From NCBI GenBank assembly GCA_947453205.1, contig CANGFT010000035.1:1-45366 (forward strand): a DNA stretch of 45,366 nt, given 5' to 3'. Of the stretch, positions 5,533 through 44,460 are shown piece by piece. Within the stretch, counting starts at the first letter, position 1, and every line of letters starts with the position of its first letter. This DNA is from Beijerinckiaceae bacterium. GTDB lineage: Bacteria > Pseudomonadota > Alphaproteobacteria > Rhizobiales > Beijerinckiaceae. The notes beneath the pieces were generated by a model, which was not told the DNA's origin, did no database searches, and worked only from the letters and a program-made list of their open reading frames with translations. A program made the position numbers and the translations under genes.

Positions 5533-5749
5533 AAACGGGGTGTATTACTTTATGTTAATGACATATTGAAAAAATTGTACATGTAATGAGGCAGATAAGA
5601 CAAACAGCAATATAGATGCATGACATTCGTAGGGTCACAAAAGTCCTGCCGTTCATGACATTTGCAGGAGGTCCGGGCCTTGAGATCAGGCGTCCGGGTT
5701 CAGCTTGCAATCCGTCAGAAGACCGCAGTCCGCATCCCCCCGGTCGGTC
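5533..5749 (+). promoter_or_regulatory. AT-rich leader of the RTX protease gene
   Basis: 217 bases without a supported gene. The first 100 are markedly AT-rich, unlike the surroundings, and hold several TATAAT/TTGACA-like strings without one clear pair. A strong AGGAGGT occurs at 5666-5672, but the TTG that follows it is out of frame with the protease and opens only a short frame, so its purpose is unclear. I see no hairpin terminator for the ABC-F gene. The segment most likely carries the protease promoter. Confidence 0.4.
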
Positions 5750-8700
5750 ATGCATCAGAGTTCAAAACGCTCCCAACGCTTTCTGGATGGGCTTCCGGAT
5801 TCCTTTCTGGTGCAGCTTGAAAGCGGCGTGGATGTCGCCACGCTCGATGCGAGCTTCGAGGAGCTCGGCGCGCAGAAGATTCAGGTCATCGAGCCGCCCA
5901 ATCCCGAAGAGGGCAGAGGCCCGCTTCTTCTCGTCGATTTCAACCCCGGCGAGACGGCTCAAAAAGCGCTCGGCGCCCTCGCCGATCTGCCCGGCGTCCT
6001 GTTCGCCGAGCCTGACGCGAAGCTGACGATCTTCGATCAGGGGCGGCCCGTCCACGCGAGCGCGCTGGCCGTTCAAGGCATGGATCTGGACGGCGGGGCG
6101 AGGGAGACGACGGAGGCCAGCCCCGCGCTCAACCTCATCAATGCGCCAGACGCCGCCGCCGCCACGCCGCCCGGGATCGTCGCGCCTGGCGAAGAAGCGG
6201 CTGTTCAAACCGCCATGGCGTCTGACGCCGATGGGGTCATGACGATCGACGCCGTCAGCAATGACACGAGCTATGTCAACGGCAGTCTGTGGAACATGTA
6301 TGGCGACAAGACCGCCATTGTGAACGCCTATGGCGGTCAGGCGGGCGAGGCCTGGGCGACAGGCTTCATCGGCTCCATGAAGACCGTGGTCGGCGTGGTC
6401 GACACCGGCATCGATTACACCCATCCTGACCTTTATCTGAATGTCTGGCTCAATCAGGGCGAGATCCCCACGACGCTGCGCGCTGCGCTGAAAGACGTCG
6501 ACGGCGATGGCCTCATCACCTTCCGCGACCTCAACGCCGCCGCAAATGCGGCCTATGTCTCAGACATCAACAAGAACGGCTATATCGACGCGGGCGACCT
6601 TCTGAAGGATGCGCGCTGGGCCGATGGCGTTGATGGGGACCGCAACGGTTATAAAGACGACCTGATCGGCTGGGATTTCGCCAACAACGATAACGACCCG
6701 TTTGACGACAACGGCCATGGCACCCATGTGTCCGGCACCATCGGCGCCATGGGCGGCAATGGGACAGGCGTCGTCGGCGTGAACTGGAACGTGCAGATCG
6801 TCGCGATGAAGTTCCTGGCGGCCAACGGATCGGGGGCAACCTCCGGCGCCGTTCAGGCGATCAATTACTTCACCGCCGAAGCGAAGCTTGCGCCTGTCGG
6901 TGAAAACTTCGTCGCGACCAACAATTCATGGGGCGGCGGCGGCTATTCGCAGGCGCTCGCCGACGCCGTGACCACGGCGGCCAAAAGCGACATTCTCTTC
7001 ATCGCGGCCGCCGGCAACAACGCCAGCAACAACGACACGACCGCAAACTATCCGTCCAACCTCTCGACGCTTTCCACCGCAGGCTATGAAGCCGTCGTCT
7101 CCGTCGCGTCGCTGACAAGCACGGGCGGCTTGTCTTCCTTCTCGAACTACGGCTCTTCAACCGTCGATCTCGCGGCTCCCGGCTCCTCCATCTATTCCAC
7201 GCTGCCCGGCGGCTATGGAACCTATAGCGGCACCTCCATGGCGACGCCGCTCGTCACCGGAGCCGTCGCGCTCTACGCCGCCGCCCATCCCGACGCAACG
7301 GCCGCGGAAATCAGGTCCGCGCTGCTGGCGAGCGTCGACGCCACATCTTCACTGGCGGGCTACACCGTCACCGGCGGTCGTCTCGACATCGGCAACATGC
7401 TCAACGGGGTTCCCGCGTCCAATGACATCGCCGGAAGCCTGAGCACCTCGGCCGTCCTGACGCTTGACGCTCCCTGCCTGTCGGCCATCGAAACCGCAGG
7501 CGATCAGGACTGGTTCAAGGTCACGCTGGCCAAGGGCTACATTTATACATTCGCCATGGACGCTGCGGCGGGTTCGGCCATAGATCCCTATCTGCGCTTG
7601 CTGGACTCCACGGGCAAGGAACTCGCCGCCAACGACGACGCCGATGGGAACAACGCGCGCATTTCCGTCATCGCCAATGTCGATGTGACCTGTTTCGTCA
7701 GCGCGCAGGCCTATCAGACGACCGTGGGCGCCTATGCGCTTTCCATGACGGTCTCTCTTGGATCGCTTGTTCTCTCGGGAACCTCGGCAAGCGACAATCT
7801 CGTCGGCGCCGCCGGAAATGACTCGCTGACCGGCCTTGGCGGCAATGACACGCTCGACGGCGGCCTTGGCGCGGACACGATGACCGGCGGCTCGGGGAAC
7901 GATGTCTATTATGTCGATAATGCTGGCGACGTCGTCGTCGAGCAGGCCTCCGAAGGAACGGACACGGTCAATGCGGCCATCAGCTATGCGCTGACCGCCA
8001 ATGTGGAGAACCTGACCCTGACGGGCACGGCCGCCATCAACGCGACCGGCAACACGCTCAACAATGTCCTCAACGGCAACGCCGGCGCCAATGTCCTTGA
8101 TGGCGGCATGGGCGCGGACACCATGACCGGGGGCGCAGGCGATGATGTCTATATCGTCGATAACGGCAGCGACCTCGTCGTGGAGGCGGCCGCTGGAGGC
8201 GTGGACACGGTCAACGCCTCGATCACCTATGCGCTGACCGCCAATGTGGAGAACCTGACCCTGACCGGCACGGCCGTCATCAACGCGACCGGCAATGCCC
8301 TGGGCAATGTCATCAATGGCAATGTCGCCAACAACATCATCGACGGCGGCGCGGGCGCCGACACGATGGCGGGCGGCGCCGGAGATGACGCCTATATCGT
8401 GGATAATGCGGGCGATGTCGTCATAGAAGCCGCTTCCGAGGGAACCGACAGCGTCAACGCCTCCGTCAGCTATGCCCTGACGGCCAATGTCGAGAAGCTC
8501 ACGCTGACCGGCTCCGCCGCGATCAACGCCACAGGCAATGCGCTGGGCAACGTCATCAATGGGAACGCCGGCGCCAACATCATCGACGGCGGCGCAGGCG
8601 CTGACACGATGGCGGGCGGCGCTGGCGATGACACCTATTTTGTCGACAATGTCGGCGATGTCGTCACCGAGACCAGTTCAGGCGGCGCGGATGTGGTCAA

Positions 8701-9235
8701 CGCCTCCATCAGCTACACGCTGGCCGCCTATGTCGAAAACCTCAACCTGATCGGCTCCGGCGCGATCAATGGCGCCGGCAACGACCTCAACAACATCATC
8801 AACGGCAACGCCGCGAACAATGCGCTCGACGGCGGCGCAGGGCTCGACGTCATCTTCGGCGGCGCTGGCGATGACAGGATCAACGGCGGCCTCGGCGCCG
8901 ACACGCTCGACGGCGGCGCGGGCGCGGACATCTTCGTGTTCAGCACGGCGCTTGGTTCGAGCAACGTGGACCGGATCAACAATTTCTCCGCAGTGGACGA
9001 TACGATCGCGCTGGATCATACGATCTTCGCGGCCCTGCCCATCGGCGCCTTGACGGTCGGCGCCTTCAACACGGGCGCTTCGGCGACGCAGGCCGATGAC
9101 CGCGTCATCTACAATATGTCCACAGGCGCCTTGCTTTACGACGCCGATGGCAGCGGCAAGGGCGCGGCGATTCAATTCGCGACCCTCTCGGGCGTCACGG
9201 GAACGCTCAGCGCCGCTGATTTCGTGATCTTCTGA
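5750..9235 (+). CDS. Secreted RTX-type subtilisin-like serine protease (S8 family)
   Basis: Large calcium-dependent extracellular protease, 1161 residues from ATG 5750 (TTG 5705 is an in-frame alternative; neither has a good ribosome site). There is no N-terminal signal peptide. Order: a propeptide-like region (about 15-100); an S8 catalytic domain with Asp218 (VVDTGID), His323 (HGTH), oxyanion Asn423 (AAAGNN) and Ser496 (GTSMATP); acidic EF-hand/dockerin-like loops between Asp and His ([26 protein letters not shown]); a pre-peptidase C-terminal domain (about 560-680, DQDWFKVTL); glycine-rich RTX nonapeptides and four 81-residue units; and a C-terminal RTX block ending in ...SAADFVIF, a typical type I secretion signal. 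The catalytic set is complete, so the enzyme should be active. No HlyB/HlyD/TolC-type exporter is encoded in this window. Confidence 0.93.
7859..8830 (+). repeat. Four tandem 243-bp units encoding RTX-type 81-residue repeats
   Basis: Units run 7859-8101, 8102-8344, 8345-8587 and 8588-8830, with the start of a fifth at 8831. Each begins with GG.GADTM.GG.GDD.Y.VDN (the RTX turn), passes through a strand containing [11 protein letters not shown], and ends with NATGN.L.NV.NGN. The spacing is exactly 243 bases each time, with no indels. Long stretches are identical at the DNA level between units, which points to recent duplication or gene conversion inside the protease gene. Confidence 0.9.
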
Positions 9236-9248
9236 AAGCGCGGCGCCG

Positions 9249-9965
9249 TCAGCCTTCGCCGCGTCCCTGGACGGCGGGATGGATCTGCAGCGAGGCCCCC
9301 GCGACGCCGCCTGCATCATAAGCGGTCGGCGAGACCATGCGGTTGGGGCGGCGCACCTGACGCAGTTCGAGGCCCAGCTTCGCCATCTCGGTCTCCACGA
9401 CCGAGCTCTTGAGCACCACGAGATCACGGCGCCCCAGATTGCGCGCTGCGTCCCGCTCGGCCTTCATGTCCGTGAGCTTGCGCGCGATGGACATGGCCAT
9501 GCCCAGGGTGAAGGAGCTGTTGGCCACATGCCGGTCCTGATGGCGGAACCGCTGGTAGGCATAGGTCTGTTTGTAGCGCCCGAGCTCCGAACGGATGGAA
9601 TTGTCGATGAGCTCGGCGAGATAAAGCGCGACCTCCGTGTCTGATGGCAGGCCGAAGAACGCGTAAAGCGTCTCGCCATCCCTGTTCTTCTCGCGCCACA
9701 CGCGGCAATCGCAGAAGCGGCCGATGGCGCCGACGCAATAATCGAGGGGGATGCGGTTCTTGCGGCGCGTTTCATAGGCGCGGCGCTCGCAGGCGGATTC
9801 GCGCAGCTCCACATCGCTGAGCGAGAGATCGTGCCGGTCCAGCAATTCCGCGACCTTGGCCGCCGCCGCCAGCGCCTCAGCCTCGGTGCAGCCATTGTCC
9901 ATGGTCATGGCGCGCAGCGCCTGAATGCGGGCTTTCAGCTTTTCGAGTGCGGCCGGATCGGTCAC
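9249..9965 (-). CDS. DUF2786 domain protein, function unknown
   Basis: 238-residue soluble protein. The N-terminal 60 residues match the DUF2786 pattern: a helix (LEKLKARIQALRAMT), then a G-C-TEAEALAAAAKVAELLDRHDLSLSDVELR segment. The rest is a mixed alpha/beta region with many Arg residues and a KQTYAYQRFRHQDRHVANSSF stretch. I take GTG 9965 as the start because AGAAGGA lies six bases upstream; the frame continues upstream to 10184 but that part runs over the promoter zone and the higB remnant on the other strand. Proteins of this kind occur in phages and bacteria; no activity is established that I can name. It converges with the RTX protease (13 bases apart) and is divergent from higA. Confidence 0.7.
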   Translation of the reverse strand: MTDPAALEKLKARIQALRAMTMDNGCTEAEALAAAAKVAELLDRHDLSLSDVELRESACERRAYETRRKNRIPLDYCVGAIGRFCDCRVWREKNRDGETLYAFFGLPSDTEVALYLAELIDNSIRSELGRYKQTYAYQRFRHQDRHVANSSFTLGMAMSIARKLTDMKAERDAARNLGRRDLVVLKSSVVETEMAKLGLELRQVRRPNRMVSPTAYDAGGVAGASLQIHPAVQGRGEG

Positions 9966-10061
9966 GACGAATCCTTCTGTGATGGCCGCAAGGTAGAATG
10001 GGCGGGGGCGAGAGGGCAAGGCGGGGCCTGACCGTACCGCTTGACAGGATGTAACGCTTAA

Positions 10062-10118
10062 GTAGCGAATTGGCTTGAAGACGGCGTCTTTGATGTCGAA
10101 ATAGTGGATTATCATTGA
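10062..10118 (+). pseudogene. Remnant of a HigB toxin gene, last 18 codons
   Basis: In frame and directly before higA the sequence reads VANWLEDGVFDVEIVDYH and stops at 10116-10118. DVEIVDYH-stop is the near-invariant end of HigB/RelE-type toxins of alphaproteobacteria, normally after a WRICF-W-DG strand; here the equivalent DNA (GCGAATTGGCTT) looks like that strand with a deletion. A stop at 10059-10061 closes the frame and no toxin body is present upstream, where the divergent DUF2786 gene begins. The eight-base distance to the higA ATG is the usual higBA spacing. This is a truncated toxin, not a gene. Confidence 0.75.
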
Positions 10119-10126
10119 GGGCGACC

Positions 10127-10480
10127 ATGACCATCCGGCGCAGTGAACTTGACGCGGGGCGCATCGATCTTTCTGAGGTCGCAACAGGGCGCAGATTGGC
10201 GCCTGTTCACCCCGGCGCGATCCTTCGCGATGAATTTCTGGGGCCTCTTGAACTCAGCGTTTATGCACTGGCCGGCGCCATCAAGACCTCGCGTTCACGG
10301 CTTAACGACATCGTGCTCGGGCGGCGCGCCATCACCACCGACACGGCCCTGCGCCTCGCCCGTTATTTCGGCACGTCGCCCGAGTTCTGGATCACCCTTC
10401 AGACCCGGCATGACCTGGAGGTCGCCAACCGCACGCTTCGCAAGCAGATCGAGCGGGAGGTTTCGCCCCGCGCAGCATGA
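10127..10480 (+). CDS. higA: HigA-type antitoxin / XRE-family regulator (orphan)
   Basis: 117-residue antitoxin with a helix-turn-helix of the HigA family: PVHPGAILRDEFLGPLELSVYALAGAIKTSRSRLNDIVLGRRAITTDTALRLARYFGTSPEFWITLQTRHDL is the full HigA signature, including the HPG start and the final WL/WI-x-LQ motif. HigA binds its own promoter and neutralises HigB. ATG 10127 is preceded by GAGGG; a TTG at 10115 overlaps the end of the toxin remnant and is less likely. The partner toxin survives only as its last codons (10062-10118), so this is an antitoxin without a toxin. It ends one base before the amidohydrolase gene, which comes in from the other side. Confidence 0.88.
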   Translation: MTIRRSELDAGRIDLSEVATGRRLAPVHPGAILRDEFLGPLELSVYALAGAIKTSRSRLNDIVLGRRAITTDTALRLARYFGTSPEFWITLQTRHDLEVANRTLRKQIEREVSPRAA

Positions 10481-12130
10481 CTACTCCTCCATCCCCTCGA
10501 ACGGCGCAGCCGCATAGACCACCCTGCCGTCCACGACCGTCATGAGCGCGCGCAGGGCGCCGATGCGCTCAACGGGAATGGTCATGTAATCCTCGCTCAG
10601 CACCGCGAAGTCCGCGAGCCTGCCGATGGCGAGCGAACCACGCTGCGTCTCTTCCTGCGAGAACCAGGCGCCGCCTTTCGCATAGGCCTCCAAAGCCTGC
10701 AGGCGCGTGGGGATTTCGCGGGCGTCGCGGGTGCGCTGGCCATCCACCGTCCTTCCGTCGAGCATCCATTGCAGGGCGACGAAGGGGTGGAAGGACATGA
10801 CGCGGTGCGCATCGGTGCCCGCCGCGACCTTCAACCCCATCGTAAGCGCGCTGACGATGGGGGGCGACAGGCGCGCGGCCTCTTCGCCACGCTGGCGCGC
10901 GAAGGCGCCGCCGCGAAAGTAAAACGCGTTCTGCACGAGCCAGCCGACGCCGAGCTTCTTCATGCGCGCCAGAGTGGGCGCCGTCGCGTCATGCAGATGC
11001 GCGATGGACCAGCGCAGATCGGCGATGGGGACCGCCGCATCGACGCGCTCCAGCACATCGAGAAGCGCGCCGACGGAGCGGTCGTTCATCCAGTGAAAGG
11101 TGACGCCAAGGCGCCTCTGCACCGCAAGACCAAGCACGCGCGCCAGCGCCGCCTTGTCATCAGCCGAGGGCCTCTCGTTGTTATACATGCCCCAGGTGAC
11201 GTTCTCGCCGATCCCGTTGAACCGCAGGAAGCCATCGCCCGCGCCCATGGGCAGGTCTTTCGTCAGGTGATCGAAGTCTTCGTATTCCCTGCCGGGCTCC
11301 GGCGCGCTCAAATTATAGACGACGCGCAAGGTCAGTTGCTTCCGGCGGGCGAGCTCGCGCACGGCGCCATAGGCCTCAAGCGGCAGATTATAGCCGCCGG
11401 GATCCATGACGCCGGTCATGCCGAGGCTGTTGAGGGTTCGGAAGAAGGCTTTCGTGCCCTCGATCTGCTGCGCCAGAGATGGGCGCGGCAGGAGATCGAA
11501 GAGGGCGGTGATGGCCTCGGCCTCGCCGCTCAGCCATCCCCTGAGCTCGCCGTCCTCGCCTTGCGTCTTCAGTTGCGCGAGCAGCGGGCCATTGTTGGCG
11601 AGATCAAGGGCGAGGACCGCGCTCTTCGACAGCAGGGCGCTGCTGTAGAGATGCTGGACATAGATGCGATGGTCGGGCGCCGCCGCCTCGACCTCCTCCT
11701 GCGTCGGGCGGCGACGCTCGGCGAACTGCAGCTCGGTCCAGCCGCCCGCGACGATCAGCCAGCCGCCGGGCGGCAGGGCCTGCGCGGCGCTGCGCAGGCC
11801 CTGCAGGGCCTCGGGGATCGTCGCGGCGCCCGTCCAGTGCACCTCGGTGGCATAGGAAAGGCCCGCGCGGATCGCGTGGATATGGGAATCGATGAGGCCG
11901 GGGATGACGGTGCGGCCCCCAAGGTCGATCCTCTGCGTCGTTGCGGGGGCGCTGGTGAGGAGGGCGGCGCTCTCTCCCATCGCCGCGATGCGCCCCTCGC
12001 GCACCAGCATGGCGCTGGCCATGGGCTGGCGCTCGTCCAGCGTGATGATGGCGCCGTTGTGATACAGCCGATCCCGAGCGCAGGCGGGCGCGGCGATCAG
12101 CAGCGCCAGCGCGAGGGCGCGCAGCCTCAT
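10481..12130 (-). CDS. Exported amidohydrolase-family metal-dependent hydrolase
   Basis: 549-residue amidohydrolase (Amidohydro_3 type, related to proteins acting on N-substituted formamides and similar amides; substrate unknown). A signal peptide is evident (RALALALLIAAPACA), so it acts in the periplasm. The N-terminal beta-sandwich begins YHNGAIITLDE, the first metal motif is GLIDSHIHA (His83 and His85), later metal ligands sit in IAHLHDA and VAAGTDAHRVM, and the C-terminal sandwich strand ends with VVDGRVVYAA. Length is normal for the group. Its ATG overlaps the stop of the upstream transthyretin-like gene by four bases, so it is the last gene of a four-gene minus-strand cluster. Confidence 0.85.
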   Translation of the reverse strand: MRLRALALALLIAAPACARDRLYHNGAIITLDERQPMASAMLVREGRIAAMGESAALLTSAPATTQRIDLGGRTVIPGLIDSHIHAIRAGLSYATEVHWTGAATIPEALQGLRSAAQALPPGGWLIVAGGWTELQFAERRRPTQEEVEAAAPDHRIYVQHLYSSALLSKSAVLALDLANNGPLLAQLKTQGEDGELRGWLSGEAEAITALFDLLPRPSLAQQIEGTKAFFRTLNSLGMTGVMDPGGYNLPLEAYGAVRELARRKQLTLRVVYNLSAPEPGREYEDFDHLTKDLPMGAGDGFLRFNGIGENVTWGMYNNERPSADDKAALARVLGLAVQRRLGVTFHWMNDRSVGALLDVLERVDAAVPIADLRWSIAHLHDATAPTLARMKKLGVGWLVQNAFYFRGGAFARQRGEEAARLSPPIVSALTMGLKVAAGTDAHRVMSFHPFVALQWMLDGRTVDGQRTRDAREIPTRLQALEAYAKGGAWFSQEETQRGSLAIGRLADFAVLSEDYMTIPVERIGALRALMTVVDGRVVYAAAPFEGMEE

Positions 12131-12504
12131 GAACGCTGCAGGAAGCAGTTGGTCTCGACCATGGCGGCCACCGCCACGGAGGGACGCCGCTGCACGCGGG
12201 TCTGCTTGTAGCCATCCTTGGCGCAGCTGACCGTCACCGTATCGGCCCTGGTGTCGGCGTTGATATGGGTGCGATAGAGGCCGACCGCATTGGAGTTGAG
12301 GGTCGCCGTCTGGCCATTGGTGGAGGTGAGCGTCACCGTCGCGCCCGGCACCGCCGCGCCATTGGCGTCGCGCACGAAGCCGAAATAGACCGGCCCTTCG
12401 CGGTCCTTGTCATTGGCGGGATCGTAATCGTCGCCGCCCGCCAAAACGGCGGTTGAGAGGGCGCCGATGGCGAGGGCGAGCATCCAGCGGGTCTTGTGAA
12501 ACAT
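12127..12504 (-). CDS. Exported protein with carboxypeptidase-regulatory/transthyretin-like domain
   Basis: 125 residues: a signal peptide (WMLALAIGALSTAVLAGG), a short acidic linker (DDYDPANDKDREG), then one beta-sandwich domain of the CarboxypepD_reg type, seen as VYFGFVRDANGAAVPGATVTLTST and a later strand pair GLYRTHI and VTVSCAKDGYKQT. Such domains bind or present ligands and are not enzymes themselves. ATG 12504 has GGAG eight bases upstream; the frame extends to 12537 but that overlaps the preceding gene. The gene is coupled (ATGA) to the amidohydrolase and lies 20 bases after the small membrane protein gene, so it probably works with the exported hydrolase. Two Cys (SCAKDG and NCFL) could form a disulfide. 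Confidence 0.7.
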   Translation of the reverse strand: MFHKTRWMLALAIGALSTAVLAGGDDYDPANDKDREGPVYFGFVRDANGAAVPGATVTLTSTNGQTATLNSNAVGLYRTHINADTRADTVTVSCAKDGYKQTRVQRRPSVAVAAMVETNCFLQRS

Positions 12505-12524
12505 GGGCGAAGCTCCGCGCTGCG

Positions 12525-12860
12525 TCAGTGAGACCAATAGAACCTGAGCGCATAGAGATAGAGCGGAATGCAGGCGAGCGCAAAGACCCAGCTCGCCGCA
12601 AGCGGCACGCGCCGCGCGAGGTTCGGCGCAAAGGTCGCGAGCCCCGCGACGACGCAGCCGCCGATGAGCATGGAGAGGTTCCAGCCGAACCAGTACATGG
12701 CGGGGCCCTCGTCGCGCACGGGCGGGGCAAAGCCCCAGTCGAGCCGTCCGGTTCCCGGATGATAGGTGAAGACGGGCCAGTTCATGAGCTCGCAGGTCAC
12801 ATAGATCATGGGCGCGGCGATCGCGAAGACGCGGGCGAAGGCGAGGGCGCGATCATTCAT
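12525..12860 (-). CDS. Small membrane protein, function unknown
   Basis: 111 residues with about three hydrophobic segments (roughly 8-28, 44-65 and 76-100). I do not recognise the family. A short exposed loop after the first segment holds CELMNWPVFTYHPGTGRLDWGF and probably faces the periplasm. ATG 12860 overlaps the stop of the upstream gene as ATGA, which favours it over the earlier in-frame start at 12944. Its position between another membrane protein and two exported proteins suggests one envelope-located unit. There is nothing catalytic that I can point to. Confidence 0.65.
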   Translation of the reverse strand: MNDRALAFARVFAIAAPMIYVTCELMNWPVFTYHPGTGRLDWGFAPPVRDEGPAMYWFGWNLSMLIGGCVVAGLATFAPNLARRVPLAASWVFALACIPLYLYALRFYWSH

Positions 12861-13357
12861 GAGCCGAACCCCCGGACATTGTTGACGATGTGGCCGACAA
12901 GCAAGGCGATCCAGCCGAAAAGGGCGAGCGTGAGGGTCAGCCATTTGCGCGCCCCCTGCAGCGCCTTGTCGGCGGACCTGCGCCAGGCGAGCCAGTAGAG
13001 CGGCAAGAGGCCAAGGCCGATGCTGGCGAGCTGCTCCTTGAGCTCAAAGGCGCCCAGCGTCTTCCAGAACTCCTCCTGTTCGATGGGGATGCGGATATAG
13101 GTGCGGTATTTCACATAGATCCAGGCGCCGAACAGGAAGCAGACGATCCAGAGCCCCGTCACCGCGCTGGCGTAGACGCTGCCCTTCACCGCCGCAAAGC
13201 GCGCCACAAGCCCGTCGCTGGCGGGCGCAGGCGCGCGCAGGACCGACGCCGCCTGATGGGTGAGCGCCCCGATCAGGGCCATGGACAGGAGCCCATGGAC
13301 CATCAAAAGCACGGTCCAGAATGTCGTCTCCGACATGACCGCATGCACCAGCTCCAT
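12857..13357 (-). CDS. Four-helix membrane protein, function unknown
   Basis: 166 residues from ATG 13357, with four predicted membrane segments (about 10-32, 55-78, 102-120 and 133-155). Histidines fall in or near the membrane segments (MVHGLLSMALIGALTHQ, LVGHIVNNVRG), an arrangement seen in haem- or metal-binding membrane proteins, but this is only suggestive. ATG 13357 follows a G-rich stretch (GGGGGCG); an in-frame ATG at 13453 would put the first residues in the AT-rich border of the neighbouring insertion, so I consider the later start more likely. It is the first gene of the 13357-10481 cluster, transcribed away from the sce7725-like gene. Confidence 0.6.
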   Translation of the reverse strand: MELVHAVMSETTFWTVLLMVHGLLSMALIGALTHQAASVLRAPAPASDGLVARFAAVKGSVYASAVTGLWIVCFLFGAWIYVKYRTYIRIPIEQEEFWKTLGAFELKEQLASIGLGLLPLYWLAWRRSADKALQGARKWLTLTLALFGWIALLVGHIVNNVRGFGS

Positions 13358-13437
13358 CGCCCCCTGCCCCTGCTTGTCCGCGCCGGCATTTTGCGAGGGG
13401 GCGGCGGGCATGGCAAGGGGGAGCAGGCATTGAACGC

Positions 13438-13465
13438 TTGACATTATTTTCATAAAAGTTACATT
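13438..13465 (+). promoter_or_regulatory. Sigma-70-type promoter for the beta/sce7725 gene
   Basis: A perfect TTGACA (13438-13443), a 16-base spacer and TACATT (13460-13465), followed by AAAGGA at 13480-13485 and the ATG at 13493. It lies exactly where base composition changes from GC-rich to AT-rich, so the insertion carries its own promoter. Confidence 0.6.
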
Positions 13466-13492
13466 TATTTTAAATTTAGAAAGGATATAGAT

Positions 13493-14509
13493 ATGGCGAC
13501 CCGATATGTTCCGATAATGCGTTGGAAACGCGGAGAAAAGATAGGATTGAAGAATGTCCTAGCATCATCAAAAGCTAGAGTGTTTCCAATCTTTGAATTG
13601 GAGTCGGATCAATTTAAACTGAAGGCTGCGACAAGCAGGCAATCCGCCTTATCGGCAGCCGAAGTGGTCGTTAAAGATGTCATTGAATGTTGGGGTACCT
13701 CTGCCCCATTTGGATTATTTTTCAAATCTGCACATTCATTAACTGAAATCGCAACAGTTGCACGATCCAATAATTTAAAAATGATACCCGTGACCACGTT
13801 GCATGCTCCACCAAGTTACCAATCTGCAATTATAGCGATTCAAAACATCGACCGCCGGGGAATCGTACTTCGAATCAGTCTTAATGATGCAGCTACCGTC
13901 TCGACTTGGATGCCAAGCTGGCCCCTACATCCTTCAAAAATAGATCTGATTATAGACATCGCCGACCAAGTCAGCGTGGTCAATGGACTTGGGGTCATTG
14001 TGGATAATTTGTTCAAAGGGCTTCATAAAAATTACCAATGGCGTTCAGTTACCCTCTCAGGCACGTCAATGCCACAAAACTTTACTGGCTACGTGTCAGG
14101 GGTTCATGTCATTGAACGCTTAGAGTTTGATTTATGGCAGAGGCTCTGCGCAGTCGGATTGGCCTCACAACTCGATTATGGCGATTATACATCGACAAGC
14201 ATTGCACCAGCGCCATCTAGCATTGCTTGGGGTTATCCCATAAACGTCAGATACACAATTGGCAGGACCTTTTTGATTTGCCGAGGAGTTAGAACCGTAG
14301 GAAGTACAGGTATCCCTGCTAATGTCCAACTACGGGGGCATGCTAATACTATATTAAATACCTCGGGCAGAGGCCCAATCACTCATTGCTGGGCTGACCA
14401 ACGAATCGATGCCATAGCCCTCGGTACAGAGGGCCCGCAAACTTTGGAACATTGGGTTAGAATTGGTGTCAATCGCCACATTGAAGAAATTATAAGAATT
14501 CTACCGTAA
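13493..14509 (+). CDS. Beta-family / sce7725-family protein
   Basis: 338-residue soluble protein beginning RYVPIMRWKRGEKIGLKNVL, the start typical of the Beta_protein family (named after a phage protein); the members found beside sce7726 genes are called sce7725. Further family-like parts are VFPIFELES, then alternating strands and helices consistent with a TIM-barrel-like body (RGIVLRISL, KIDLIIDIADQ), and a C-terminal region with RGPITHCWADQRIDAIA. No catalytic residues are known to me. It has its own promoter and ribosome site (AAAGGA, seven bases). Codon use is strongly AT-biased compared with the chromosome. Its last nine bases overlap the end of the convergent sce7726-like gene, so the two are a fixed pair. 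Family call good; function unknown. Confidence 0.75.
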   Translation: MATRYVPIMRWKRGEKIGLKNVLASSKARVFPIFELESDQFKLKAATSRQSALSAAEVVVKDVIECWGTSAPFGLFFKSAHSLTEIATVARSNNLKMIPVTTLHAPPSYQSAIIAIQNIDRRGIVLRISLNDAATVSTWMPSWPLHPSKIDLIIDIADQVSVVNGLGVIVDNLFKGLHKNYQWRSVTLSGTSMPQNFTGYVSGVHVIERLEFDLWQRLCAVGLASQLDYGDYTSTSIAPAPSSIAWGYPINVRYTIGRTFLICRGVRTVGSTGIPANVQLRGHANTILNTSGRGPITHCWADQRIDAIALGTEGPQTLEHWVRIGVNRHIEEIIRILP

Positions 14510-15064
14510 CCAATTGGTTCTACTCTTGAGAATACACCTTACTTCGGCGGCCAAAATTCTGAAAGGAAGCTCATCTGCCAGCTTCTGATGCACTTCTTTT
14601 GCTGTTTTCCCACAGTAACTTTTGGCGAAGCCATAACGTCTCAGAAGTTCTAGGGCCTCGGTTTTTCGAAGCAACTCTGCGACCAGATAAGGCTCAGGCG
14701 TTAAATTACATGATCCAAGTCTAACATTTGAAAGCTCAACCTCTCCGCCATGATCTGTAGCTTGCATGATGCCCCACCAGTCGGGAATCAAATCGATTGC
14801 TTTATCTAGATGTCTAGAACCAACAACCAACGTGACTCGATCAAAAACACGGCTATAGAGTTCAACCTGATTAGGCAACCTGCTTAAATTATCGCGGTCG
14901 CTTTTTAATTCGTAGCCGCTAAGCTCGCCGTTAATTACAGCTATATCGATCCGGGCAGATTCGGCCCACACGCCCATTTCCTGAACGATGCGGGTTGAAG
15001 GATCATAAGAATAAACTTCAGCAAGGTGCCTAAGAACAGTCACTCTGACATCTCTATCACGCAT
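14501..15064 (-). CDS. sce7726-family protein, PD-(D/E)XK nuclease-like
   Basis: 187 residues. It starts MRDRDVRVTVLRHL and contains ARIDIAVINGELSGYELKSDRDNLSRLPNQ, VFDRVTLVVGSRHL and PDWWGI, the sce7726 pattern. Asp40, then Glu52-Leu-Lys54, fit the D...ExK core of PD-(D/E)XK nucleases on sequential beta strands, and the DxAV..G...YE.KSD spacing resembles Holliday-junction and restriction-type endonuclease folds; nuclease activity is inference. ATG 15064 is chosen because GGAGG lies five bases upstream; ATG 15076 is possible. It lies 47 bases after the binding-protein gene on the same strand with no terminator between them, so it may be read from that transcript. The 3' end overlaps the sce7725-like gene by nine bases. 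Confidence 0.78.
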   Translation of the reverse strand: MRDRDVRVTVLRHLAEVYSYDPSTRIVQEMGVWAESARIDIAVINGELSGYELKSDRDNLSRLPNQVELYSRVFDRVTLVVGSRHLDKAIDLIPDWWGIMQATDHGGEVELSNVRLGSCNLTPEPYLVAELLRKTEALELLRRYGFAKSYCGKTAKEVHQKLADELPFRILAAEVRCILKSRTNWLR

Positions 15065-15111
15065 TTCGGCCTCCATAGCCGCGTCATAATCACTTTCACA
15101 AACAATTCCCC

Positions 15112-16152
15112 TCACCGCTTCTTGAAGATCTCGTCGAACAGCTTCTGCGACGCCTTCACCTGATCGCCCGAGAGGGCGTAGGGGAGCACCTTGGCCTTCT
15201 CCAGCCGGGCCACCACATCGGGCGGATTCGGCGTGACGTCCGGACGGGTGGGGATGCGGCCGGTCTTGGCGGCGAAGGTCTGGGCCTCCTTGCTCAGCAT
15301 GAAATTGGCGGCGAGCTGGGCGGCCTTGGGATGGGGCGCCTTGGCGTTGATCGCCACCTGGCCGAAGAACAGGGCCACCGGATCCATGGCCCAGAAGGCG
15401 GTGGGGGCGCCGGACAGGGTCATATTGTTGGTGAGCATGGTGTAGTTGTTGAGGGCCACCGCATATTCGCCCGCCGCCACCGCGCGCGCCGCCGCCAGAT
15501 GGCCGTCGAGCACGGTGATCTTGAGGGTCGAGACGAGGTCTTCGAGCAGCTTGCGGCCCTTGGCCTCGCCGTAATGGGCGAACATGGCGTTCATCCATTC
15601 ATTGTCCGTGCCCTCGATGGCGACGCGGCCGACCCATTCCTTCTTCGTCAGGAACTCCTCGTAAGTCTTGGGCAGATCCTCCGCCTTGACGAGATTGGTG
15701 TTGTAGGCGGGCGAATTGTAATTGGCGTAGACGCCGTACCACAGCTTCCTGGGATCGCGCGCCGAGGGCATGACGTTCCTGGCCTCCGGCGGATCGAAGG
15801 GCAGCATCACGCTGTCCGGCAGCTGGTTCGCCGTGGGCGTGTTGATCATGTCCCAGGATTGCTGGCCGGTGCGGGCCTCGATGGCGATGCGGCCCATGAG
15901 CTGGGCGTCCGCCGCGCGCACATAATTGACCTTGATCCCCGTGGCCTCCTCGAAAATCTTCCACAGCGGCAGGGCTTCCTGCTCATTGGTGGAGGAATAG
16001 ATCGTCACCTGCCCCTCCGCTTTGGCGGCGGCGAGGAGCGCGGGATCCATCCAGGGCCGCTCGGCGGGCGCGCTCTGAGCCAGCGCTGCGGCGGCATTCA
16101 GCGCCAGCGCGCCAGCGATCAGCAAGTGCTTGAAGGAAAGGCCCTTGGCCAT
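15112..16152 (-). CDS. Iron-type ABC transporter substrate-binding protein (solute-binding family 1)
   Basis: 346-residue periplasmic binding protein with a clear signal peptide (LLIAGALALNAAAALA). The mature part starts with AAAKAEGQVTIYSSTNEQEALPLWKIFEEATGIKVNYVRA, the fold and wording of Fe(III)/thiamine/spermidine-like binding proteins (FbpA/AfuA relatives), and ends with a region typical of the group (AAQLAANFMLSKEAQTF..TGRIPTRPDV). GGGGAG lies six bases before ATG 16152. No permease or ATPase gene adjoins it, so it is an orphan component. It is not the obvious partner for the NitT/TauT importer at 1.1-3.5 kb, which uses a different binding-protein family. Ligand unknown; iron is only the family's commonest one. 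Confidence 0.85.
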   Translation of the reverse strand: MAKGLSFKHLLIAGALALNAAAALAQSAPAERPWMDPALLAAAKAEGQVTIYSSTNEQEALPLWKIFEEATGIKVNYVRAADAQLMGRIAIEARTGQQSWDMINTPTANQLPDSVMLPFDPPEARNVMPSARDPRKLWYGVYANYNSPAYNTNLVKAEDLPKTYEEFLTKKEWVGRVAIEGTDNEWMNAMFAHYGEAKGRKLLEDLVSTLKITVLDGHLAAARAVAAGEYAVALNNYTMLTNNMTLSGAPTAFWAMDPVALFFGQVAINAKAPHPKAAQLAANFMLSKEAQTFAAKTGRIPTRPDVTPNPPDVVARLEKAKVLPYALSGDQVKASQKLFDEIFKKR

Positions 16153-16219
16153 GGTCTGCTCCCCGAATGTTCGTTCGGCGGGGAAGGTGGCCTGTGCGGG
16201 CGCGGGTGTCAACGCGCGC

Positions 16220-16252
16220 AAAAAAGGCCGCACGGGATCGTGCGGCCCCTTT
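16220..16252 (-). terminator. Rho-independent terminator of asd
   Basis: Perfect 8-bp stem GGCCGCAC / GTGCGGCC (16226-16233 with 16240-16247) and a six-base loop. On the minus strand the stem is followed by a run of T residues (the A run at 16220-16225 on the plus strand). It lies about 25 bases after the asd stop and upstream of the binding-protein gene. Confidence 0.85.
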
Positions 16253-16274
16253 CGACGTCAAATGAGAGAGACGC

Positions 16275-17306
16275 TCAGCCCTGCGCCTTCGGCTTGATGA
16301 GCTTCTGGTTCAGCATGCTCTCGGCGATCTGGATCGCATTCAGGGCCGCGCCCTTGCGCAGATTGTCCGACACGCACCAGAAGGTCAGGCCGTTCTCGAC
16401 GGTCGCGTCCTCGCGGATGCGCGAAATATAGGTCGCGTCCTCGCCCGCCGCCTCGTGGGGGGTGATGTAGCCGCCGTTCTCGCGCTTGTCGACGACGAGC
16501 ACGCCGGGCGCCGCGCGCAGGATCTCGCGCGCCTCATCGGCCGTGATGGGCTTCTCGAATTCGAGATTGACCGCTTCCGAATGGCTGATGAAGACGGGCA
16601 CGCGCACGCAGGTCGCGGTGAGCTTGATCTTGGGGTCGAGGATCTTCTTCGTCTCGACCATCATCTTCCACTCTTCCTTCGTATAGCCGTCCTCCATGAA
16701 GACGTCGATGTGAGGGATGAGGTTGAAGGCGATGCGCTTGGTGAACTTCTTCACCTGGACGTCGCCGAGCGAATAGAGCGCCTTGGTCTGGCGGTCGAGC
16801 TCGTCCATGCCTTCCTTGCCCGCGCCCGACACCGACTGATAGGTCGAGACGACGACGCGGGTGATGGTCGCGTGGTCATGCAGGGGCTTGAGGGCCACCA
16901 CGAGCTGCGCGGTCGAGCAGTTGGGATTGGCGATGATGTATTTCTTCGTGAAGCCCTTGATCGCGGCCGCGTTCACTTCGGGCACGATGAGCGGCACGTC
17001 CTGATCGTAGCGCCAGGCGGAGGAATTATCGATCACGACGCATTTCTGCGCGCCGATGCGGGGCGACCACTCCTTGGAGATGTCGCCGCCCGCCGACATC
17101 AGGCAGATGTCGGTGTCGCTGAAGTCGTGATGCTCGAGCTGCTTGCACTTCAAGACCTTGTCGCCATAGGACACTTCCGTGCCGATCGAGCGGCTTGAGG
17201 CGAGCGCGACGACCTGATCGGCGGGAAACTGACGCTCCGCCAGGATATTCAACATTTCGCGGCCCACATTGCCCGTGGCGCCGACGACTGCGACCTTGTA
17301 GCCCAT
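16275..17306 (-). CDS. asd: Aspartate-semialdehyde dehydrogenase
   Basis: Reduces aspartyl phosphate to aspartate semialdehyde with NADPH, the branch point to lysine/diaminopimelate, threonine, methionine and isoleucine. 343 residues, full length. The N-terminal Rossmann motif is VAVVGATGNVGREML, the catalytic Cys130 sits in NPNCSTAQ, and the substrate region includes QSVSGAGKEGMDEL and the motif RVPVFISHSEAVNLEF. ATG 17306 has AGAAGGG upstream. A terminator follows the gene, so it is a single-gene unit. dapF, which uses the diaminopimelate made from its product, lies at 30.4 kb in the same window. Confidence 0.97.
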   Translation of the reverse strand: MGYKVAVVGATGNVGREMLNILAERQFPADQVVALASSRSIGTEVSYGDKVLKCKQLEHHDFSDTDICLMSAGGDISKEWSPRIGAQKCVVIDNSSAWRYDQDVPLIVPEVNAAAIKGFTKKYIIANPNCSTAQLVVALKPLHDHATITRVVVSTYQSVSGAGKEGMDELDRQTKALYSLGDVQVKKFTKRIAFNLIPHIDVFMEDGYTKEEWKMMVETKKILDPKIKLTATCVRVPVFISHSEAVNLEFEKPITADEAREILRAAPGVLVVDKRENGGYITPHEAAGEDATYISRIREDATVENGLTFWCVSDNLRKGAALNAIQIAESMLNQKLIKPKAQG

Positions 17307-17514
17307 AGTCTTGACCCTTCTGAAATCTGGGTGGGTTGGAACACCGCTGCGGCCCGTCTGTCAACGCCTGCGGCCCAAACCTTTGTCTGAGCCGGGGCGA
17401 TTCACCCTTCGTTAAGGTGAAGATCAGCGTCCGCCGTCGTTAACCAGTCCTGCTAACGAACAGGCAGGAAGCGTGAGGCCATCGTCGGGCGATCATAGGC
17501 CCGAGGCTGACCTC
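17307..17514. promoter_or_regulatory. Divergent promoter region asd / membrane protein
   Basis: 208 bases between two divergent genes. A perfect 6-bp inverted repeat TTCACC...GGTGAA (17401-17406 with 17416-17421) could be a regulator site. The motif GTTAA/TTAAC recurs at 17411, 17439 and, as CTAACG, near 17453. No clear promoter hexamer pair or riboswitch is evident. Confidence 0.35.
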
Positions 17515-18273
17515 ATGAGCGATCAACTGACCGAGCTTGGCCTGTCATGGCGCCCCCACAAGCCGCAGGCCCCCGCTGCTGCGGGCAGGCGGCGCGCGCC
17601 CTGGCTGCTGCGCCTGCTGCCGGGGCTTGGCGCCTGCGGACTCGCAGGCCTTCTGGTGGCGGGCCTGATGGACCAGCGCGCGGCGCCGCCCCCGGCGCCG
17701 CCATCCGCAGATCCCGTCTGGGTCGATGCGGGCGCGCCCCTCTTCGGGCTCGCGGGCGCAGGCCGGGCCCTGCGCAGCGAGGCCCTGCGGCGCAGCGCAG
17801 GCTTCGGCCGCATCGACACGCTCACCCTCGGCGAGGGCCCCGGCGGGGACTGGCTGCGGCTGGCGCTGCAACAGGCGGGACCGCAGGATCCCGCGCCCGG
17901 CAGCCTCTTCCTCGATCTCAGCCGCGCTGCGGCGCGAGCGGGCGTCGCGGTGACGCGGTCCGCCTTGCCCGGCCTGCTCGCCACCCGTTTCGGGGACTTT
18001 GAGGCCGCGGAGGTTGAGCTGGCCCAGGGCGATGGCGCGCGCGCCTGTCTCGGCCTGCGGCTTCTTGCGGGCGAGCCGGACCTTCGAATCACCGGCTTTT
18101 CCTGCGCCCGCGAGGGCAGACCGGCTCCGGCGGCGCTGGCTTGCCAGCTCGACGGCTTGCAACTGGCGGCCCCGGAGGCGGACGCCGGCCTCGCCCGGTT
18201 CTTCGCCGCGGCGGAGCTCGCCTCGGGTTCGGCCTGCATCGCCCGTCAGGCGGAGGCCCGCCCGCGCCGATGA
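17515..18273 (+). CDS. Single-pass membrane protein, function unknown
   Basis: 252 residues and very rich in Ala, Arg, Leu and Pro. A basic cytoplasmic start (WRPHKPQ...GRRRAPWLLRLLP) precedes one membrane segment (about residues 44-64, GLGACGLAGLLVAGLM), then a Pro/Ala linker and a periplasmic domain with three Cys (ACLGL, FSCAREG and CQLDG) plus a fourth near the end (CIARQ). I do not recognise the family. ATG 17515 has a GAGG just upstream; GTG 17473 is in frame but has no such site. It may be read together with the small exported protein gene that follows at 18361, 87 bases on. Confidence 0.6.
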   Translation: MSDQLTELGLSWRPHKPQAPAAAGRRRAPWLLRLLPGLGACGLAGLLVAGLMDQRAAPPPAPPSADPVWVDAGAPLFGLAGAGRALRSEALRRSAGFGRIDTLTLGEGPGGDWLRLALQQAGPQDPAPGSLFLDLSRAAARAGVAVTRSALPGLLATRFGDFEAAEVELAQGDGARACLGLRLLAGEPDLRITGFSCAREGRPAPAALACQLDGLQLAAPEADAGLARFFAAAELASGSACIARQAEARPRR

Positions 18274-18360
18274 CCGCAAGGGAGGGGGCGCGCCGCCGAA
18301 AGATCGGTTGATCCACGCTCCCGTCCACCCTAGATTTGCTTGAGCCGCAAGGGAGATAGC

Positions 18361-18648
18361 ATGAGCCAGATCGCACGCAGGATGACCATCGCCATGGCGG
18401 CTTCGTTGGCCGCCGTCTTCTTGACCGCCACGCTCGCCGAGGCGCAGACCCGCCGCACGGCGCCGCGCACCCTCACCGTCAAGAAGCGCCCCTTCACCGA
18501 CATGGGCACAGTGGTCCCGGTCGGCAGCCAGAACCATTACGCGACCGACGGCGTCCAGCTGCGCCGGATCTCGCCGACCTATTACAGCAACCGCGGCCTC
18601 TACGGGAACGAGACGCTCCCCGGCCCGTTCGGCGTCTACGGGAATTGA
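18361..18648 (+). CDS. Small exported protein, function unknown
   Basis: 95 residues: signal peptide (MTIAMAASLAAVFLTATLAEAQ), then a basic, Tyr-rich mature part of about 65 residues (TRRTAPRTLTVKKRPFTDMG, PTYYSNRGLYGNETLPGPFGVYGN). No enzyme motif and no known domain that I can name. AAGGGAG lies seven bases before ATG 18361; the in-frame start at 18340 is upstream of that site. The palindrome after the stop has a poly-T tail only on the other strand but may also slow this transcript. Confidence 0.65.
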   Translation: MSQIARRMTIAMAASLAAVFLTATLAEAQTRRTAPRTLTVKKRPFTDMGTVVPVGSQNHYATDGVQLRRISPTYYSNRGLYGNETLPGPFGVYGN

Positions 18649-18654
18649 ACCCGC

Positions 18655-18690
18655 CTTAAATAAAAACCCCCGGCCAAAAGACCGGGGGCC
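18655..18690 (-). terminator. Terminator of leuB (possibly bidirectional)
   Basis: Stem CCCCCGG / CCGGGGG (18667-18673 with 18682-18688), loop CCAAAAGA. On the minus strand it is followed by TTTTTATTTA, giving a normal rho-independent terminator 25 bases after the leuB stop. On the plus strand the hairpin lacks a T run. Confidence 0.8.
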
Positions 18691-18713
18691 AACAAGTCAA
18701 ACCGCAGGCGGCC

Positions 18714-19826
18714 TCAGCCGACCAACGCCTTGAGCTCCGCCACGATGGCCTCGCCCATCACGGTCGTCGAGACGTAAGAAGCCGCGTCGCCCTTGATGTC
18801 GGCGGTGCGCAGGCCGCTGGCCAGCACGTTGGAGATCGCCTTCTCGATCATGTCGGCGGCCTCGCCGAGGCCGAAGGAATAGCGCAGCGCCATGCCGAAG
18901 GAGCCGATCATGGCGATGGGATTGGCGAGGCCCTTGCCCGCGATGTCCGGCGCCGAGCCGTGGACGGGCTCATAGAGAGCCTTGCGCTTGCCGGTCTTGG
19001 GGTTGGTCTCGCCCAGCGAAGCCGAGGGCAGCATGCCCAGCGATCCCGTGAGCATGGCCGCGACGTCGGAGAGCATGTCGCCGAAGAGGTTGTCGGTCAC
19101 GATCACGTCGAACTGCTTGGGCCAGCGCACGAGCTGCATGCCCAGCGAATCCGCGAGCTGATGCTCGAGCTGCACATCGGGGAATTCGCGCTTGTGCAAG
19201 GCGGTGATGACCTCGTTCCAGAGCACGCCGGACTTCATGACGTTGCGCTTCTCGGACGAGGTGACCTTGTTCTTGCGCTTGCGGGCGAGTTCGAAGGCGA
19301 CGCGGCCGATGCGCTCGATCTCGTAGGTGTCGTAGACCTGCGTGTCGATGCCGCGCTTCTGGCCGTTGCCCAGATCGATGATCTGCTTGGGCTCGCCGAA
19401 ATAGACGCCGCCGGTGAGCTCGCGCACGATCATGATGTCGAGGTCTTCGACGATCTCGCGCTTGAGGGAGGAGGCGTCGGCGAGGGCGGGATAGCAAATG
19501 GCCGGACGCAGATTGGCGAAGAGGGCGAGATCCTTGCGCAGGCGCAGCAGGCCGGCCTCGGGGCGCACGTCATAGGGAACCGCGTCCCACTTGGGGCCGC
19601 CCACCGCGCCGAACAGAACGGCGTCCGCGGCCTGGGCGAGGGCCATGTGGTCTTCGCTGATAGAGGCGCCATGGGCGTCATAGGCGGCGCCGCCCACAAG
19701 GCCACGCTCGAAATTGAAGCTGGCGAGGCCAGCCTGCCCCATGAAGGCGGCGACCTTCTCCACTTCGGTCATCACTTCGGGGCCGATGCCATCGCCGGGC
19801 AGCAGGAAGATATTATAGGTCGCCAT
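18714..19826 (-). CDS. leuB: 3-isopropylmalate dehydrogenase
   Basis: Third step of leucine synthesis: NAD-dependent oxidative decarboxylation of 3-isopropylmalate in the cytoplasm. 370 residues, normal length. Visible signatures are the N-terminal [12 protein letters not shown], the substrate Arg region ([17 protein letters not shown]), [12 protein letters not shown], and the cofactor/metal motif [33 protein letters not shown], with [15 protein letters not shown] following. I use ATG 19826 ([11 protein letters not shown]); the frame extends to 19889 without similarity, and no strong ribosome site decides between them. It lies close to usg on the same strand. Confidence 0.97.
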
Positions 19827-19932
19827 CAGGGTCATCCGCGTGAAAGGGTTTCGCGCGGACTTGCTAGCGGGGCCCAAAGGGATTGGCAAGACGAATGGAG
19901 AGGCGAATGGCGAGGCGCCGGAGCGCCCCCGC

Positions 19933-20202
19933 CTAGTTCAGCAGGAACTCGTCATTCACATTGCGCCATTCGGCGGGCTTGATGAGCCGGGCGTGGGCAA
20001 CGCGCACCGAATGCAGCGGGCCATCGAGGCTGCGTCGCCAGAAGTCCAGAAAGCGCCGGAGCTCGGGATAATGGGGGTGCAGATCGTAGCGCTGCCAGAC
20101 GAAGCGCTGGAGCAGGCCGGGATGGTCGGGCATGTGGTAGAGAATGTCTGCGGTCGTCAGACCATAGCCCTGCAACTGACGGCGGAAGTCGGCGGACGCC
20201 AT
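19933..20202 (-). CDS. usg: Usg family protein
   Basis: 89-residue protein of the Usg family, which is conserved in alphaproteobacteria; the name comes from its place upstream of other genes and the function is unknown. The whole sequence fits: [28 protein letters not shown], the aromatic-rich [22 protein letters not shown] and [25 protein letters not shown] stands eight bases before ATG 20202. Next on this strand comes leuB; usg is often found beside trpF in relatives, which is not the case here. Confidence 0.88.
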
Positions 20203-44384: not shown

Positions 44385-44460
44385 GCCGCAGTGGCACAGC
44401 TGGTAGCGCACCTCATTCGTAATGAGGGGGTCGGGGGTTCGAGTCCCTCCTGCGGCACCA
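44385..44460 (+). tRNA. tRNA-Thr (anticodon CGT), CCA encoded
   Basis: Full cloverleaf: acceptor GCCGCAG (44385-44391) pairs with CTGCGGC (44450-44456), anticodon stem CCTCA/TGAGG (44411-44415 with 44423-44427) around TTCGTAA with anticodon CGT at 44418-44420, and T-arm GGGGG-TTCGAGT-CCCTC (44433-44449). Discriminator A at 44457 and CCA at 44458-44460 are present in the DNA. It reads ACG threonine codons. An accessory-looking segment follows directly, and tRNA 3' ends are common integration sites. Confidence 0.96.

Follow-up and report, generated by a model that had tools for sequence, protein, structure and literature searches.

An accessory, convergent β-sce7726 gene pair with overlapping coding ends in a Beijerinckiaceae genome, a likely phage-defence unit

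The described system closest to the locus analysed here is gop-β-cII of satellite phage P4 (Rousset et al. 2022; PMC9122126), an anti-phage system that protects against λ and P1; its gop is toxic in the absence of β and is treated as the likely toxin of the satellite system, and P4 β is called an antitoxin (PMC9122126, PMC9519451; statements on these and the other papers cited by PMC number refer to the portions of text consulted). Also related are PD-λ-2 (Vassallo et al. 2022; PMC9519451), in which defence, though not toxin neutralisation, depends on the β-related third protein, and the pair of sce7726 (NF033832) and sce7725 (NF033831) genes. The locus in question is a two-gene insert in contig CANGFT010000035.1 of assembly GCA_947453205.1 (Beijerinckiaceae bacterium), the 45,366 nucleotides of which are called the window and give all coordinates below. 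It consists of a β gene on the + strand and an sce7726-family gene on the − strand, which converge and overlap by nine bases. At somewhat better than even confidence, the insert is read as the β-sce7726 (β-cII) core of gop-β-cII without gop and as a likely means of phage defence, with sce7726 as the presumed nuclease effector and β as its likely restraint.

The β gene (Beta_protein, PF14350; 13493..14509; 338 amino acids (aa)) is preceded by AAAGGA at 13480-13485, its likely ribosome site, while the best start of the sce7726-family gene (P4 cII homologue; 14501..15064; 187 aa) is the ATG at 15064, with GGAGG at 15070-15074, in agreement with the family start MRDxDVR. An earlier reading of the DNA, made from sequence alone (the sequence-only reading), had described a sharp drop in G+C, altered codon use and two converging genes with a nine-base overlap, and all three are borne out: G+C is 0.44-0.49 at ~13.3-15.1 kb against 0.60-0.70 in the surroundings; G+C and third-position G+C (GC3) are 0.453 and 0.404 for β and 0.457 and 0.415 for sce7726, versus 0.62-0.65 and 0.86-0.90 for three flanking genes; and the overlap occupies exactly 14501..14509. 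That reading had also proposed an own promoter. A sigma-70-like candidate for β (13438..13465, + strand) matches at 10 of 12 positions, but a scan of the region found two sites versus 2.1 (standard deviation 1.8) in shuffled sequence; since the count does not exceed the shuffle expectation, an own promoter of β is plausible, no more.

By profile search, the sce7726 protein scored 156 bits against NF033832 (curated cut-off 70) over 183 of 184 positions and β scored 160 bits against PF14350 (gathering cut-off 27) over positions 1-341 of 342, placing each within its family. The names first proposed thus held for sce7726 and for β, but not for the sce7725 label also attached to the latter: β matched no NCBIfam model at E≤1 and does not belong to the sce7725 family (NF033831, cut-off 60), to which a genuine sce7725 protein from another locus scored 339 bits. 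Judged by these profiles, β and sce7725 are separate families. They do resemble each other weakly at the C-terminus, in GDF/GDY and HHIE/RHIE stretches (L078, L191, L193, L194; hhalign E 0.0025, probability 12%). This is no more than suggestive of homology; the two families, whose orientation rules are opposite, may be distantly related.

Compared with the described systems, the insert stands closest to P4. Since P4 cII itself is an sce7726 protein (151 bits to NF033832), the window pair corresponds to the β-cII part of gop-β-cII without gop, and the earlier remark that no settled function was known for these families overlooks gop-β-cII, a published anti-phage system (PMC9122126), and the β-related component of PD-λ-2 (PMC9519451). 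The order is also that of P4, where gop and β are followed by cII on the opposite strand. No gop was found near the window pair (phmmer of P4 gop against open reading frames (ORFs) of ≥60 aa in 8001-20000; none at E≤1e-3), and β and cII of P4 are separated by 27 bases with an annotated putative terminator, whereas the window genes overlap. In PADLOC, sce7726 matched the 'cll' model (E 5e-30) and β matched PD-Lambda-2_C (3e-23) and 'beta' (5e-5). The PD-λ-2 operon consists of a HigB-like A, an Xre-peptidase B and a β-like C, while the window holds the C-like gene only and so is not a PD-λ-2 operon: two B proteins (L051, L059) had no match in 8001-20000 (A was not searched separately), and the gene upstream of β, which matches no Pfam family, is encoded on the opposite strand. 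The sce7726-sce7725 pair shares the sce7726 family and a partner similar in length to β, yet its partner is of another family and its genes are co-directional.

Structure prediction of the sce7726 protein gave a PD-(D/E)XK core of the restriction-endonuclease-like fold, as the sequence-only reading had anticipated from D40...E52-x-K54. These three residues are invariant in alignments of 32 and 106 rows, and the full motif set of E29, D40, E52, K54, Q66 and Y70, present in the window protein, is invariant in the 32 rows, with the motif residues placed on predicted strands 25-33, 37-44 and 48-54 and helix 63-70. The protein is thus a predicted PD-(D/E)XK nuclease with an intact motif and a helical C-terminal part. 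Among known folds it is matched best by 3dnx, a functionally uncharacterised protein that we take to be MmcB-like. β is predicted to form a TIM barrel. Sequence searches of the PDB retrieved no credible relative of either protein (best E 0.038, a prolactin, for sce7726 and 0.91 for β).

Occurrence of the two genes was determined in an even class sample of 385 genomes and a phylum sample of 398 genomes (own genome included in each). In the class sample β was found in 12 genomes and sce7726 in 10 (nine over the cut-off), with both in 7 versus 0.3 expected by chance; in the phylum sample the corresponding numbers were 13, 14 above cut-off (19 at E≤1e-3) and 11 versus 0.5, so that the association proposed earlier between β and sce7726 is confirmed. 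Wherever both genes were present they were adjacent and tail to tail (17 of 17 distinct genomes across both samples), and seven loci from named bacterial genomes were likewise all convergent. A search of IMG/VR with the sce7726 alignment confirmed 154 relatives, 80 of which were kept: 76 have a convergent β, three stop at the contig edge and one (L151) differs. A scan of IMG/VR with the window's own proteins returned one locus for β and none for sce7726. Among plasmids, 15 records carry β, 14 of these also carry sce7726, and all 14 pairs are convergent, the aligned ends of the two genes lying 0 to 13 bases apart. Among the genome, virus and plasmid loci compared, none paired β with sce7726 in a co-directional or divergent arrangement. 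Convergence is therefore the rule for this pair, although the sequence-only reading had found it notable for a nuclease and its partner; the co-directional form is that of sce7726 beside sce7725, seen in four of four loci (G157, G461, G803, G683).

Each family also occurs apart from the other. β without sce7726 was found in 5 of the 12 class-sample and 2 of the 13 phylum-sample genomes (G066 common to both); among the five of the class sample, β of G340 lies beside a PD-λ-2_B protein and that of G066, G312 and G367 beside ORFs that by eye read like ImmA/IrrE peptidases. In G340 the β gene is in three pieces over 3.8 kb (G340:C1 4042700-4046489; L062), perhaps interrupted by an insertion. sce7726 was seen with neither partner in G270 (2.2 kb of locus only) and in phage Mx4, whose annotation shows no convergent neighbour (neighbours not tested for β). 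In virus contig L151 (6001-7810), sce7726 without β is followed co-directionally by genes for a protein-kinase domain and for a PP2C-like phosphatase, possibly a further partner set of sce7726.

The shared 3′ end was compared in 71 pairs, namely 58 clusters obtained from 90 pairs at 90% β identity plus 13 added pairs (ten of the phylum sample, G141, P4 and Rac-SA53). The coding sequences overlap by at least one base in 67 pairs, by at least nine in 61 and by at least 20 in 55, with a median of 45 bases. Overlap as such is not rare, as three of the eight convergent neighbour pairs counted over 49 kb of E. coli K-12 overlap (one by ≥9 bases), but its persistence in β-sce7726 pairs is striking. 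The frame relation tracks the tree: 48 pairs share one register, 18 are in the codon register and five in a third, and the window's clade of 16 pairs is in the codon register with one exception (L090). The distance matrices of the β and sce7726 proteins agree as well (r 0.73 versus 0.24 for the best of 1000 permutations).

In the codon register, the leucine codon (TTA/CTA) of a conserved sce7726 W-L is the reverse complement of the β stop (TAA/TAG), and a TGA stop would make that leucine a serine. In the window the β strand reads ...CTA CCG TAA and the opposite strand ends in W-L-R, the β stop being opposite the codon of residue L186; a leucine is present at this position in 100 of 106 aligned rows, window included. 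The β stops of the window's clade are TAG in 10 pairs, TAA in five and TGA in none of 15, versus TGA in 51 of 90 other long ORFs (mechanical ORFs of ≥200 aa from the same loci; binomial p 4e-6). This count leaves aside loci L174, L181 and L186, which are in the codon register by arithmetic, lie outside the window's clade and have the stops TAA, TAG and TAA.

Selection within the overlap was assessed by replacing β codons with synonyms and rescoring the sce7726 overlap residues against profiles of relatives of <60% identity, for pairs with at least nine bases of overlap and at least two core residues. In 41 of 59 pairs the real sequence outscored its synonymous shuffles at p<0.05 (L110 is among the 59 as an invalid, non-significant case, its β being frame-shifted, its row out of frame past the break and its values void). 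With shuffles limited to open frames, 40 of 53 were significant (36 of 40 in the relation termed register 2 and 4 of 13 in the codon register), while a shuffled-profile-column control gave 5 of 53 and 7 of 53, somewhat more than the nominal 5%. When instead sce7726 codons were shuffled and β was scored, with the split β of L110 and L091 excluded, 47 of 57 pairs were significant, with no shuffled-profile control on this side. Of the 55 pairs for which both tests were run, 35 were significant on both sides, 31 of 40 in register 2 and 4 of 15 in the codon register. The window overlap alone is not significant (p 0.35 and 0.27; two core residues on each side), nine bases holding too few residues for a test of their own. 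At the family level, selection on both proteins within the shared 3′ bases is thus supported, and an indel or exchange at the junction is therefore expected to damage both genes.

Upstream of β, the gene content varies. An ImmA/IrrE-type or PD-λ-2_B-like protein lies ≤60 bases upstream in 11 of the 71 pairs (and at 180 and 591 bases in two others); gop occupies this place in one (P4). In 59 none of the three was found within 60 bases, with some loci ending early upstream and small ORFs of unknown kind possibly present there. When up to nine ORFs around each of 58 pairs were clustered by BLAST, no conserved third gene emerged, no family occurring in more than four loci. Loci L058, L180 and L181 share a four-gene layout of a small membrane-like protein (by reading), an ImmA/IrrE peptidase, β and a convergent sce7726, which may be a distinct system; the peptidase of L058 is capP-like in PADLOC. 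In L089 (Shinella), a DUF3800 gene (5911-6678) lies upstream of β and divergent from it.

The insert is bounded on the right at 15108..15114, at the stop codon of a solute-binding-protein gene, where homology with four same-genus genomes stops (15108-15111); beyond it three of the four have different sequence, and the contig of the other (G017) stops 20 bases on. The nearest relative (G005) keeps the right flank (15108-19871) at 82.7% identity without the insert, followed by a gene that reads like a major facilitator superfamily transporter (by reading, with no family scan). The left border zone (13357..13453) takes in the end of homology with G016 at 13357 and the low G+C, which sets in by ~13440; the left gene, homologues of which occur in 16 of 20 relatives (three of those loci inspected), lies on the strand opposite to β. 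In none of the seven loci inspected (L047-L050, L074-L076) were the two flanks adjacent, so no joined empty site emerged, and the unit may have been inserted or may have replaced other sequence. PF14350 is carried by two of 51 same-genus genomes, one being the window's own and the other G022, a member of a diverged pair. This and the low G+C and GC3 indicate that the unit is accessory and not ameliorated, as first proposed; the 2026 survey listing sce7726 and a beta family protein among unknowns agrees with accessory genes, as it covers strain-specific loci (PMC13414232). The borders have no notable repeats, only short chance-like ones, and the sole tRNA of the window (tRNA-Thr, 44385-44460) is far away. 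The claimed lack of an integrase holds for the ten proteins of 5.7-19.9 kb scanned against Pfam, the rest of the window not having been scanned for one. A plasmid scan with the flanking gene gave no match. Further left are a subtilase gene (Peptidase_S8) with RTX-type calcium-binding repeats (5705-9235) and a helix-turn-helix gene (HTH_3; 10115-10480) that reads like a HigA-type antitoxin, with no obvious HigB among the adjoining listed ORFs.

For the window copy we infer phage defence. sce7726 would be the effector, a PD-(D/E)XK nuclease, and the predicted TIM-barrel protein β would likely hold it inactive until infection, upon which the output would be nucleolytic attack on the nucleic acid of the phage or of the infected cell. 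A role of β as both sensor and restraint is proposed by analogy with P4 β and the β relative of PD-λ-2, because gop is toxic without the former and the latter is needed for defence (PMC9122126, PMC9519451). As β's upstream partners vary and sce7726 recurs as the convergent downstream partner, restraint by β and output by sce7726 is the simplest arrangement; other toxins beside β would then be add-ons, and because 59 of the 71 pairs show none of the three upstream genes within 60 bases of β, the nuclease-motif protein is the likely effector. Through the tail-to-tail lock, a dangerous nuclease would stay with its controller when the unit is transferred, and it is possible that the complementary mRNA ends act in regulation. 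A more far-reaching version, in which β-sce7726 is the hidden common core of gop-β-cII, PD-λ-2 and the ImmA/IrrE-linked forms as well as a novel, genetically locked type of immune unit, with effector nuclease and controller encoded on opposite strands of the same 3′ bases, its register frozen within large clades, its lock forcing co-inheritance and its complementary mRNA ends coupling expression so that a phage disturbing host transcription releases the nuclease, is considered rather unlikely.

Several observations weigh against the defence reading. No assay of the two-gene form was found in the literature, the published activity being that of gop-β-cII with gop. The role of each protein without gop is a guess, and sce7726 could be inactive or a repair enzyme; Foldseek alone gave no match at E≤0.001 for either model. 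The window copy may be weakened, because its β lacks three near-invariant residues (D76F, Y225S, L256I), that is, three deviations at columns conserved at ≥95%, whereas 59 relatives average 0.73 such deviations and reach at most 4. Nor is it certain for every pair that there are two genes only, as a co-directional ORF of ≥60 aa, real or not, ends ≤60 bases upstream of β in 31 of the 71 pairs (that of the window is a mechanical call running antisense to the host gene on the left). The 126 mechanical neighbour ORFs from 12 genome loci (those <100 aa or >2,400 bases excluded) matched 30 PADLOC families at E≤1e-10, with one member each and no matched control, so that no enrichment of defence genes is claimed; type II restriction, MADS, SIR2, capP and PD-λ-2_B are among the matches listed. 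Still, none of the three outcomes named by the sequence-only reading as contrary to it was found, that is, a lack of a nuclease core, no association of the two families, or ubiquity with amelioration. Its proposal of a compact, foreign nuclease-plus-partner unit and defence candidate thus stands as the best guess, apart from what it had said of orientation and of function.

Among the alternatives, a selfish addiction pair (sce7726 as toxin, β as antidote, defence incidental, the lock stopping loss of the antidote alone) is improbable, though it is the strongest of them. It draws on the toxicity of gop without β and on the antitoxin label of P4 β (PMC9122126, PMC9519451), whereas PD-λ-2C, the β relative, is not needed for neutralisation (PMC9519451). 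Both genes do occur together in virus contigs, plasmids and chromosomes, but sce7726 is also found without β, beside sce7725, and without an annotated convergent neighbour in phage Mx4 (those neighbours not tested for β). Moreover, known toxin-antitoxin operons are co-directional, which counts against it. Slightly less probable is a prophage-borne pair that, instead of defending the host in general, serves DNA processing or competition among mobile elements (excluding rival phages or plasmids). The IMG/VR relatives, their neighbours, some of which read like terminase and other phage genes from the ORFs, and the plasmid copies fit such a role; the window copy, however, has host-type genes on both sides, and none of the ten proteins scanned is a phage protein, and P4 relatives act against λ and P1 (PMC9122126). 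That the overlap is mere compaction of converging genes without a spacer, of no functional consequence, is very unlikely. Convergent overlap is not rare in E. coli K-12, the tail of sce7726 past residue L186 is mostly unconserved in the window's clade, few codon-register pairs are significant on the sce7726 side and the window's own overlap is not; yet compaction is at odds with overlaps of ≥9 bases in most pairs, with selection on sce7726 in 41 of 59 pairs and on β in 47 of 57 (shuffled-profile control of the sce7726 side, 5 and 7 of 53), and with the absence of TGA stops in the window's clade.

The single parts and the P4 system are already known. In the freely accessible literature searched, neither the two-gene form as a unit nor its fixed convergence or the dual coding where the genes meet was found described, and no mechanism paper for β-sce7726 came to light; the word 'convergent' is absent from the consulted text of PMC9122126, and 'convergent' and 'antisense' from that of PMC9519451. 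Fully established long overlapping genes are few in prokaryotes (PMC9927249), and two-sided selection on antisense-overlapping coding ends makes this family a clear case of prokaryotic dual coding. The gop-less pairs give a clear and cheap test of the nuclease-motif protein as effector, and the shared coding end offers a concrete reason for the two genes staying together while moving between genomes.
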